64,000 nt of DNA from positions 276,702-340,701 of the forward strand of contig CACWNX010000001.1 in assembly GCA_902762295.1 (NCBI GenBank), given 5' to 3'. Position numbers and translations under genes: made by a program. Positions 11,612 through 13,674 of this stretch are shown here, in pieces; within the stretch, counting starts at the first letter, position 1, and every line of letters starts with the position of its first letter. This DNA is from an uncultured Pseudomonadota bacterium (GTDB lineage Bacteria > Pseudomonadota > Alphaproteobacteria > Rs-D84). Under the pieces are notes generated by a model. It saw only the letters and a program-made list of their open reading frames with translations. It was not told the DNA's origin and made no database searches.

Positions 11612-13381
11612 CTAATTCTTTTTACGAACCTGGATATGAACATCACGCAGTTGCTGTTCGGTGACCTCGTTTGGCGAACCCATCAACAAATCTTGACCGC
11701 GTTGATTCGCCGGGAACGCAACAATTTCACGAACACTATCGCCATTGCCCAGTATTTCCGAAATTAAACGTTCAATACCAAACGCACATCCACCATGTGG
11801 TGGTGCACCATATTGAAACGCGGTATATAAACCTGAAAAGTTCTTTTCAACCGCCTCGATTGGATAGCCTGCGATTTCAAAACACTTTTTCATAACATCC
11901 GGATTATAATTCCGCAACCCGCCACTGCAAATTTCCATTCCGTTTAAAACCATATCAAATTGTGCCGCCTTGATTGAAAATGGGTCACGTGTTGACAATT
12001 CTTCCAATGTCGCCAACGGATATGAAAACGGATTATGTGTAAATGCCGGCGCACCATCGCGTTCGGGGTCTGGTTCAAAGAACGGGAAATTATCAACCCA
12101 GCAAAATGCGAAATCACGTGGTTTAATTAACCCTAAATCTTCACCAAGTTTATTACGCAACCTGCCCGCTGCACGCGTCGCATTATCGGTGGTATCACAA
12201 ATAAAGAACAACGATGAATTGTCGCCTGCAATTTTATGCAATTTTTCAATGCGCTCGGCATCCAATTTTTTGGCAACTGGACCCTTTGGTTCATCTGCAA
12301 AAACGATATAGCCTAATCCCCCAAGTCCAAGTTCTTTGACCGCATATTCACCAAGTTTATCAAACCATGAACGGGGTTTATCTGCGCTGTTTGGTGCCGG
12401 AATTGCACGAACCACACCGCCATTTTCAATCGCATTTGCAAATATTCCAAAATCTGACCCACGAAAAATATCGGTCACATCTGAAATCAAAATTGGATTG
12501 CGCAAATCTGGCTTGTCCGAACCATATTTTAACATTGCGTCGTCAAATGAAATGTGCGGGATTTCCGGATAAACATTCGCATCTGGCACAAACGTTTTAA
12601 TCAGTTCTGGCATAATTGCTTCGCCAACCGCCTGAATATCCGGCAAATCAACAAAGGACATTTCTAAATCTAACTGATAAAACTCTAATAATCTATCCGC
12701 CCGCAAATCTTCATCACGAAAACACGGCGCAATTTGAAAATAACGATCAAAGCCCGCCACTTGCAGTAATTGTTTAAACATCTGGGGTGCCTGGGGCAAA
12801 GCATAGAATTTACCATGATGCAAACGCGATGGAACCAAGAAACTGCGCGCACCTTCGGGTGAATCGGCGGTAAGCAATGGGGTCTGGAATTCTGAAAAAC
12901 CTAAATCCCACATTTTGTCACGCAACCACTTCATAATTTTATTACGCATTAAAATATTATTGTGCAATTTTTCACGGCGTAAATCCAAGAAACGATATTT
13001 ATATCGCAATTCTTCACTGGTATCATCGTCACCAAAAACCTGGAATGGCAAAACATCCGCATTTGTTAAAACATCCCATTTTTCAACCTGCACTTCTATT
13101 GCACCGGTTGGGATTTTATCATTTACCTGGGATGCATCACGTGCGACAACTTTACCGGTTATCTGCAACACAGATTCCGGGCGTACACGTTCCAAATCAT
13201 CATTTCCACCGTCAATAACTATCTGGGTTATTCCGTAATTATCGCGCAGGTCAATAAACAGTAAAGACCCATGGTCGCGTTTACGATGCACCCACCCCGA
13301 CAGGGTGACCACTTCTCCAACATTTTTTGAATTTAATTCACCGCAAGTATGCGTTCTGTATTTTGATTTCAGTGATAACAT
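11612..13381 (-). CDS. aspS: Aspartyl-tRNA synthetase
   Basis: A 589-residue bacterial-type class II synthetase. It has an OB-fold anticodon domain (about 1-105), the class II core with motif 2 (QIAPCFRDEDLRADR), a GAD insertion (about 280-400) and motif 3 (GCAFGIERLISEIL). It charges tRNA-Asp; whether it also charges tRNA-Asn cannot be told from sequence alone. The ATG follows AGGGG. The leader between it and tRNA-Thr(GGT) holds a T-box-like element whose UGGC bulge matches the G73 discriminator of tRNA-Asp. The gene is bracketed by two copies of the 26-nt repeat. Confidence 0.96.
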   Translation of the reverse strand: MLSLKSKYRTHTCGELNSKNVGEVVTLSGWVHRKRDHGSLLFIDLRDNYGITQIVIDGGNDDLERVRPESVLQITGKVVARDASQVNDKIPTGAIEVQVEKWDVLTNADVLPFQVFGDDDTSEELRYKYRFLDLRREKLHNNILMRNKIMKWLRDKMWDLGFSEFQTPLLTADSPEGARSFLVPSRLHHGKFYALPQAPQMFKQLLQVAGFDRYFQIAPCFRDEDLRADRLLEFYQLDLEMSFVDLPDIQAVGEAIMPELIKTFVPDANVYPEIPHISFDDAMLKYGSDKPDLRNPILISDVTDIFRGSDFGIFANAIENGGVVRAIPAPNSADKPRSWFDKLGEYAVKELGLGGLGYIVFADEPKGPVAKKLDAERIEKLHKIAGDNSSLFFICDTTDNATRAAGRLRNKLGEDLGLIKPRDFAFCWVDNFPFFEPDPERDGAPAFTHNPFSYPLATLEELSTRDPFSIKAAQFDMVLNGMEICSGGLRNYNPDVMKKCFEIAGYPIEAVEKNFSGLYTAFQYGAPPHGGCAFGIERLISEILGNGDSVREIVAFPANQRGQDLLMGSPNEVTEQQLRDVHIQVRKKN

Positions 13382-13400
13382 TTTTTACCCCTTTTTCTTG

Positions 13401-13426
13401 TCCCACGAAGCCTTGGCGAAGTGGGA
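13401..13426. repeat. 26-nt hairpin repeat, copy A (upstream of aspS)
   Basis: Outer stem TCCCAC/GTGGGA, GAA/GAA internal loop and inner stem GCC-TT-GGC, all perfectly paired outside the loops. It lies 19 nt before the aspS start, inside the aspS leader and downstream of the T-box-like element. Same plus-strand orientation as copy B. Confidence 0.65.
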
Positions 13427-13450
13427 TCGGGCGACAAAATAACAGGATTT

Positions 13451-13586
13451 TGGCACCCACAATTACTAAATGTTTTTTTCGGGGCGCATAAATTGGCTAT
13501 GCGCGGTGCCACCCGAATTTATCACTTTTTTTGTTTTTGAATACGACTCCGTGGTTGTTGGTCACATCAACACCAAATTCAAAAAC
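13451..13586 (-). promoter_or_regulatory. T-box-like tRNA-sensing leader of aspS
   Basis: Read on the minus strand. A 10-bp base stem (GTTTTTGAAT / ATTCAAAAAC, 13533-13586) encloses an apical hairpin with a 7-nt loop containing GAC, an Asp codon (13561-13563). Downstream is a structure with the exact T-box antiterminator layout: helix TTCGGG/CCCGAA (13478-13517), a 7-nt bulge TGGCACC (13505-13511), and helix GCGCATA/TATGCGC. Thirteen bases match the T-box consensus GGGUGGNACCGCG. The UGGC bulge would pair with a GCCA 3' end, and tRNA-Asp has G73. A later GGTGCCA (13451-13457) is fully complementary to the bulge and could form the competing fold. Stem I is much shorter than in classical T-boxes. 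The mode (transcription or translation) is unclear. Confidence 0.7.
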
Positions 13587-13600
13587 GGATTATGCATTCG

Positions 13601-13674
13601 TGGTGCCCTAAGCAAGAATCGGACTTGCGACTCGTCCTTACCAAGGACGTGTTTTACCACTAGACTATTAGGGC
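13601..13674 (-). tRNA. tRNA-Thr (anticodon GGT)
   Basis: A 74-nt cloverleaf with encoded CCA. Acceptor stem GCCCTAA/TTAGGGC, anticodon stem CGTCC/GGACG around loop TTGGTAA, T-arm GCAAG-TCCGATT-CTTGC. Anticodon GGT reads ACC/ACU. G1-C72 and C2-G71 fit Thr identity. The D-stem has one C-A mismatch. It is transcribed towards aspS and could share its transcript. Confidence 0.88.

Follow-up and report, generated by a model that had tools for sequence, protein, structure and literature searches.

T-boxes are known mainly from Gram-positive bacteria. Two ways of holding the tRNA are described in the accessible text of PMC7583486, either by a long stem I at the tRNA elbow or by a short stem I combined with Stem II and the IIA/B pseudoknot, the latter two modules being essential where stem I is truncated; the ileS T-boxes agree with such a need for Stem II at short stem I (PMC10651847, accessible parts). 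Among Proteobacteria, T-boxes were counted in two of 125 genomes, upstream of leuA in Geobacter and Pelobacter (PMC2494555, accessible parts), and the class II model of TBDB was searched in Actinobacteria and applied to truncated class I matches, according to the accessible text of PMC7778990. A T-box of the tRNA-dependent asparagine pathway and a two-codon form of it are known from Clostridium acetobutylicum (Saad et al. 2012, 2013, as cited in the accessible parts of PMC4206432 and PMC4052509). In the open literature, covered mostly at the level of titles and abstracts, a search for T-boxes in alphaproteobacteria, Proteobacteria or Enterousia returned no alphaproteobacterial report among the papers listed, in line with the initial annotation, which knew of none.

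Here we describe the sequence, structure conservation, distribution, codon variation and neighbouring genes of a T-box upstream of the aspartyl-tRNA synthetase gene aspS of an uncultured alphaproteobacterium, located in a stretch of 64,000 nucleotides (the window). Judged by its sequence, it is a known kind of element in a new lineage and with a new minimal architecture. With the actinobacterial ultrashort class II T-boxes of ileS it has in common, as far as the accessible parts of PMC7583486 and PMC10651847 describe them, a short stem I with K-turn, the lack of an elbow-binding tip, an antisequestrator with a UGGN bulge and probable control of the Shine-Dalgarno sequence; it differs from them in having no Stem II, S-turn, IIA/B pseudoknot or stem III, in belonging to another phylum and in its predicted use of Asp/Asn instead of Ile. 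Stem II is also absent from the glycine T-boxes (glyQS; PMC7583486, accessible parts), but their long stem I grips the tRNA elbow, whereas the stem of the aspS element ends at the codon loop. The T-box of C. acetobutylicum, as far as it is covered by the sources cited above, is likewise linked to the amidation route of Asp-tRNA(Asn), but belongs to the Firmicutes, whereas the codon of the aspS element switches back and forth between Asp and Asn from one relative to another. The leuA T-boxes of Geobacter and Pelobacter also lie outside the Gram-positives, but differ in class and in gene and are called typical in the accessible text of PMC2494555.

Architecture and identity of the aspS leader

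The genome that contains the window comprises 836 kb in four contigs and is 93% complete. Its AspRS is 84–92% identical to those of eleven MAG loci (L031-L040, L059), mostly titled Alphaproteobacteria or proteobacterium and from rumen or gut samples, and a 76% match comes from Candidatus Enterousia scatequi, whose genus NCBI places in the Alphaproteobacteria, as expected from the alphaproteobacterial host that the initial annotation had proposed. The annotation of the downstream gene as aspS also stands, its product scoring over the cut-off for both NF001750 and TIGR00459. A tRNA-Thr(GGU) gene lies directly upstream of the leader and perhaps shares a transcript with aspS; the sole promoter-like site of the window leader region, at 13724-13697, precedes this tRNA gene (one site found against 1.1 expected by chance). 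tRNA-Thr(GGU) also precedes the T-box in L033, L037, L043, L190 and L193.

The element covers 109 nt of the minus strand (13478-13586) and consists of a 54-nt stem I, a 15-nt A-rich linker and a 40-nt antiterminator (Table 1). On this strand the antiterminator matches GGGTGGCACCGCG exactly, and the plan first recognised there, a 6-bp helix, the bulge TGGCACC and a 7-bp helix, is exact, as is the downstream complement of the bulge, GGTGCCA at 13457-13451. Stem I had been read as minimal, similar to ultrashort forms and with a GAC-containing loop. It is indeed short, but has a 10-bp outer helix, three further pairs and a K-turn plan; its specifier position reads AAC, and the GAC referred to (within GTGACC) is partly in the stem. 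The likeness to the actinobacterial ultrashort forms is incomplete, too, as these have Stem II and the IIA/B pseudoknot (PMC7583486, accessible parts) and the window element has neither.

Table 1. Positions of the aspS leader elements and neighbouring genes in the window
Feature	Position	Strand	Basis
tRNA-Thr(GGU), directly upstream, ends 14 nt before stem I	13601..13674	-	
Stem I, overall	13533..13586	-	Sequence; covariation in 73 and 51 leaders
Stem I outer helix GTTTTTGAAT/ATTCAAAAAC, 10 bp	13586-13577 with 13542-13533	-	
Stem I GGT/GTC, 3 pairs beyond internal loop	13574-13572 with 13547-13545	-	
Stem I K-turn plan: 3-nt bulge; tandem GA	13571-13569; 13568-13567 with 13549-13548	-	
Stem I 3-bp helix GTG/CAC	13565-13563 with 13553-13551	-	
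Stem I 9-nt end loop	13562-13554	-	
Predicted specifier codon AAC	13557..13559	-	GAC in 57/73 leaders
A-rich linker AAAAAAAGTGATAAA, between stem I and A1	13518..13532	-	Sequence; conservation
Antiterminator/antisequestrator: A1, T-box bulge, A2	13478..13517	-	Sequence, RF00230, covariation
Helix A1 TTCGGG/CCCGAA, 6 bp	13517-13512 with 13483-13478	-	
T-box bulge TGGCACC, 7 nt	13511-13505	-	
Helix A2 GCGCATA/TATGCGC, 7 bp	13504-13498 with 13490-13484	-	
Strand 2, GGGTGCC; pairing options: T-box bulge or strand 3	13452..13458	-	
Strand 3, TTTTGTCGCCC; pairing options: strand 2 or Shine-Dalgarno sequence	13429..13439	-	
26-nt palindrome between strand 3 and Shine-Dalgarno sequence; outside core switch	13401..13426	-	
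Shine-Dalgarno-like AAGGGG of aspS	13388..13393	-	Sequence
aspS, aspartyl-tRNA synthetase, probably non-discriminating	11612..13381, start 13381	-	

Neither class mark is present in the window leader. The elbow-binding tip of stem I with its double T-loop motif, the mark of class I, is absent, stem I ending in the codon loop; Stem II, S-turn and IIA/B pseudoknot, the mark of class II, are absent as well, and between stem I and A1, where stem III is also missing, there is only the linker. Other T-boxes have a purine string around stem III, of which the linker may be what is left: in place of RRRxG-stem III-AA the window reads AAGUG-AU-AA, with the last G varying in relatives and stem III absent.

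The Rfam T-box model RF00230, which the initial annotation had suggested running, covers the leader from end to end (model positions 1-219); the score is 26.5 bits, far short of the gathering score of 93, with E 4.8e-4 when 461 bases are searched. In the 836-kb genome the aspS leader is the sole match at E <= 10 (E 2e-4). With the gathering score as threshold, neither the window nor any of the 190 genomes searched in the order yields a match, so that absence by this cut-off means little. Folded by itself, the window leader beats its shuffles by only 1.9 sd (10 of 200 as good), and the pairing of GAATGC with GTATTC in this fold was set aside because the covarying helix uses another partner. The features that distinguish the T-box family, helix A1, a 7-nt UGGNACC bulge and helix A2, are all found, the bulge being itself the search pattern; A1 and A2 are kept in 73 of 73 leaders and covary, and stem I presents a predicted specifier codon that fits the downstream aspS. 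A K-turn in stem I is present in nearly all T-boxes, and the window stem I has the sequence plan of this GA motif, a 3-nt bulge followed by GA/GA. The terminal A2 pair is G-C in all 73 leaders and not the G-U wobble described as aminoacyl sensor, which is common in T-boxes and here not taken as defining. On these sequence and conservation criteria the aspS leader is a T-box that belongs to neither described class.

Conservation, distribution and fuller relatives

Conservation of bulge and helices as well as covariation in relatives had been named at the outset as tests of the T-box reading, and both were found. GGTGGCACCGCG precedes aspS in 29 of 29 close loci, compared with 0 of 51 more distant alphaproteobacterial aspS loci. 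Counting RF00230 matches upstream of any gene, 40 of 59 genomes, the window's own included, have one at E <= 1, 143 of 190 genomes of the order at E <= 0.01, nine of 385 genomes of the class at E <= 0.001 and none of 398 genomes of the phylum at E <= 1e-5, a cut-off that would miss the window's copy too. We also checked aspS in 30 genomes, namely 22 of the window's own genus (g1; the window is f1/g1 in our family and genus labels) selected from those without RF00230 match at E <= 0.01, and eight others. In 26 of these aspS could be located: the T-box is present in 18 of 19 g1 loci from genomes without strong RF00230 match (L185 and L191 included), the remaining one (L203) being cut off, while of the seven non-g1 loci L206 has a T-box and L204, L205 and L207-L210 have none.

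Two sets of leaders were compiled. Seventy-three distinct leaders, with duplicates removed, passed a stem I pattern requiring TGA, RAC and GA as well as an AspRS start pattern; omitting the stem I pattern and adding later loci resulted in 93 distinct leaders, of which 80 pass the pattern and 13 fail. The failing leaders are five fuller forms and eight minimal ones; the latter all have GAC and deviate beside the loop helix. For covariation, 51 of the 73 leaders (<0.88 similarity) were aligned; of the 31 invariant columns of this alignment, some are invariant owing to the search pattern. Given these 51 diverse leaders and no constraint, RNAalifold recovers stem I and A1/A2. In the counted structure 92.3% of the cells are paired, compared with 34–52% in slid controls, and 13 pairs show double-sided change in a total of 193 cells; none of 500 shuffles reached these values (six of 500 did so for further pair types). 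Across the 73 leaders, the stem I C-helix, on which the pattern sets no condition, is paired in 395 of 438 cells against 128–176 when slid, and the first five pairs of A1 and the first four of A2 form without exception. Having been selected for GA, the 73 leaders are no test of K-turn conservation; in four of the eight minimal pattern-failing leaders (L048, L219, L226, L227) the 3′ GA is TA.

A covariance model built from the 51 leaders (R1), with the window leader in training so that the window's score is not independent, finds the minimal form outside the training set in L217, L219, L220, L222-L224, L226, L227, L229 and L230. These matches precede genes that are aspS by eye, from other f1 genera, and a match in L221 precedes what is by eye an AspRS2-like gene; E lies between 5e-14 and 3e-19 throughout (2e-15 to 3e-19 for L217, L219, L220, L222 and L223). 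In 57 aspS loci without T-box R1 has no match. R1 matches in G433 and G438 (E 0.002-0.006) were rejected as chance, since on visual inspection they fall within reading frames or directly behind them and have no UGGNACC bulge, and a match of a looser T-box pattern in L081 was rejected as resembling upstream coding sequence.

T-boxes of a fuller type, which also have a stem II region and a CCCGUUA-type segment (taken here as the F-box), precede aspS in L003, L114, L132-L135 and L206 and AspRS2-like genes in L111, L113, L121, L123, L218, L225 and L228. The gene family was checked for four proteins only, those of L121, L138 (the gene of L010), L139 and L140; all four pass NF003483, aspartate-tRNA(Asn) ligase, so that a reading of this other T-boxed gene as asnS was rejected. 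The fuller forms have the same core, a related codon loop and the same kind of target gene as the minimal form, but keep the two additional modules that it does not. Both forms occur in genomes G084, G133 and G185, and because fuller forms exist in relatives, with three genomes having both, the minimal form is most simply seen as a reduction of the fuller one. Promoter-like sites scoring at least 9 are present in 47 of the 73 leaders (26 score <9, and 14 of 73 shuffled leaders reach 9), and in 39 of the 47 they end 24–34 nt before the TGA of stem I. In leaders with such a site just before stem I the RNA likely starts at stem I, which makes an upstream domain unlikely in them.

Several further arrangements were seen in these genomes. 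At L228 (G185:C26) two T-boxes are adjacent and divergent: the fuller of them precedes the AspRS2-like gene, and the opposite strand carries a minimal one. L004 and L006, from the same order, are T-boxes of tyrosyl-tRNA synthetase genes with a GGTACC bulge. In another alphaproteobacterial family, a DAHP synthase gene is preceded by a long T-box, L131 (G407:C1:135170-135410), that exceeds the Rfam cut-off with 110 bits; recent transfer or contamination may account for it. L034, L035, L038 and L050 have repeated segments similar to AAATGCAT...TTTGCGTTTGTT upstream of the leader, some of them just after CACCA.

Predicted specifier codon and tRNA ligand, and AspRS

Positions 4–6 of the end loop read GAC in 57 and AAC in 16 of the 73 leaders, for which the pattern demanded RAC; the 13 leaders of the 93 that fail the pattern also read GAC or, in L114, AAC, and no other triplet. 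The fuller relatives L133-L135 and L206 have a shorter loop in which only the specifier triplet fits, and this is GAC. The first GAC of the loop (GTGAC) was rejected as specifier, some relatives having GTGCC or GTGTC there while RAC at positions 4–6 is kept. Since the window specifier reads AAC, the predicted ligand of the window copy is tRNA-Asn rather than tRNA-Asp. A tandem GAC-AAC/AAT is present in 43 of the 57 GAC loops. On an AspRS tree of 29 loci and four outgroups (L048 unlabelled, GAC by eye), well-supported branches impose six changes to account for the six AAC rows, and the AAC/GAC label is no more clustered than when shuffled.

The tRNA-Asp(GUC) of the genome ends CCC-G-CCA and hence carries G73, as the initial annotation had assumed, and ten tRNA-Asn genes read from genus-mates have G73 as well; the N of UGGN is C, complementing the discriminator of both tRNAs. 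tRNA-Asn was matched at 92–100% in ten of 12 genomes tested and not found in the other two, the window genome (G000) and G021; in the window MAG it is not among the tRNAs named by ARAGORN. As the tRNA is needed, this is perhaps an assembly gap in both. Partial tRNA-Asn matches beside the intact gene, perhaps footprints of elements inserting there, were observed in G022, G028, G029, G059, G060 and G073.

According to the accessible text of PMC4206432, bacteria that lack AsnRS obtain Asn-tRNA with a non-discriminating AspRS, which provides Asp-tRNA(Asn), and GatCAB. A search with TIGR00457 (E <= 1e-60) found no asnS in 53 of 59 genomes, the window's own among them, and gatB is present in 55 of the 59, again including the window's own. 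The best PDB match of the AspRS is 4wj3, Aspartate-tRNA(Asp/Asn) ligase, with E. coli AspRS scoring nearly as high; RDHG is common to the window AspRS and 4wj3, where the E. coli enzyme has RDLG, and is found in all 33 AspRS of the tree, including four without T-box. The His of RDHG presumably marks dual specificity of AspRS. By these sequence features the AspRS is probably non-discriminating, one enzyme feeding both tRNAs. With asnS not found and gatB present, the Asp/Asn codon flips fit such an enzyme, and since one enzyme probably serves both tRNAs, either codon would report on AspRS.

Downstream strands and a proposed translational switch

In 64 of the 73 leaders the T-box is followed by strand 2 (GGTGYY), a pairing-capable strand 3 and the Shine-Dalgarno sequence, whereas nine short forms are without strands 2 and 3. 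Strand 2 pairs better with its own strand 3 than with those of other leaders (−13.1 versus −11.6 kcal/mol; 0 of 300 shuffles as good), and so does strand 3 with its own Shine-Dalgarno region (mean −7.8 versus −7.1 kcal/mol; one of 300), although the strand-swap shuffles ignore the relatedness of the leaders. Matching changes of strands include CGCCC with GGGCG in L037, GCACC with GGGTGT in L052 and GCC with GGC in L049; the pairing of bulge and strand 2 cannot covary, the bulge being invariant.

Folding gives mixed support to a switch. The unpaired fraction of the Shine-Dalgarno Gs is 0.76 with A1/A2 forced, 0.16 with bulge:strand 2 forced and 0.45 with nothing forced, and exposure is higher in the A1/A2-forced state in 62 of the 64 leaders, by >0.2 in 57. 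However, only 18 of the 64 leaders favour the bulge:strand 2 fold energetically when tRNA is absent, the mean difference being 1.5 kcal/mol in the wrong direction. The window leader does favour the OFF-type state (−46.3 versus −42.7), but its contrast at the Shine-Dalgarno sequence is weaker (0.91 versus 0.58), and this sequence is preceded by a palindrome (TCCCAC...GTGGGA), similar copies of which are found at the same place in L022, L116, L187 and L122 (two). In the nine short forms the Shine-Dalgarno sequence may be masked directly by CCCC, the 3′ strand of A1; with nothing forced, 0.00–0.03 of the Gs are unpaired in L055 and L057, 0.32–0.36 in L195 and L196 and 0.54–0.92 in the other five.

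We consider it likely that the minimal aspS T-box senses uncharged tRNA-Asn (tRNA-Asp in most relatives) and then frees the ribosome-binding site. The end-loop codon of the K-turn stem I would pair with the tRNA anticodon, and the GCCA end that both tRNAs, having G73, are inferred to offer when uncharged would be read by UGGC in the bulge. Bound uncharged tRNA would hold A1/A2 together, leaving strand 2 free for strand 3, so that the Shine-Dalgarno sequence would be exposed and aspS on; with charged tRNA, the bulge would instead pair with strand 2, and strand 3 would be freed to cover the Shine-Dalgarno sequence. Points against this reading are the RF00230 score far under the gathering threshold, the lack of a second tRNA anchor, which PMC7583486 treats as essential beside a short stem I, the terminal G-C pair of A2, TA in place of the 3′ GA in some relatives, the nine leaders with no strands 2 and 3, and the negative search for tRNA-Asn in the window MAG.

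As modelled, the output is likely control of translation and not termination. A transcriptional T-box choosing between terminator and read-through would be in keeping with the hairpin and T-run typical of terminators that are visible by eye in the tyrosyl-tRNA synthetase T-boxes L004 and L006, and with the T-rich stretches between strands 2 and 3 in many leaders. It is nevertheless improbable, as the minus strand between 13300 and 13800 yielded no terminator-like site, no T-run follows bulge:strand 2 or strand 2:strand 3 in the window, and in the nine short forms only about 60–67 nt separate T-box and start codon. The presence of fuller forms with a stem II region in relatives, and the absence of several modules from the minimal one, could alternatively mean that the latter has degenerated from an older full T-box and lost its function. 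Given helices that survive 193 double-sided changes in 51 leaders, and a T-box retained in all 29 close loci plus 18 of 19 g1 loci without strong RF00230 match, we regard this as very unlikely.

In E. coli, the thrS operator allows the synthetase to repress its own mRNA via a tRNA mimic. That AspRS likewise binds its own leader as a tRNA mimic is extremely unlikely: the gene does encode a synthetase and the leader hairpin does have a 9-nt loop, but this loop carries a codon (GAC/AAC) and not an anticodon (GTC/GTT), and such a mechanism has no place for the invariant UGGCACC bulge complementary to the tRNA end.

Beyond the translational T-box as the preferred reading, we lean slightly towards a third T-box architecture, in which codon and acceptor end would be the sole grips on the tRNA, elbow contact and Stem II both being absent, a three-strand relay would uncover the Shine-Dalgarno sequence, and a dual-specificity AspRS would be watched by a one-base Asp/Asn codon flip; the tandem GAC-AAC/AAT may let one loop read both tRNAs. 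The finding extends the T-box into the Alphaproteobacteria, where fuller and reduced forms coexist in living relatives. A bacterial family whose aspS T-boxes are mostly without both anchors would show the minimum RNA needed to decode a tRNA and test its charging, and its natural series of Asp/Asn codon flips would track the dual tRNA use of the enzyme.
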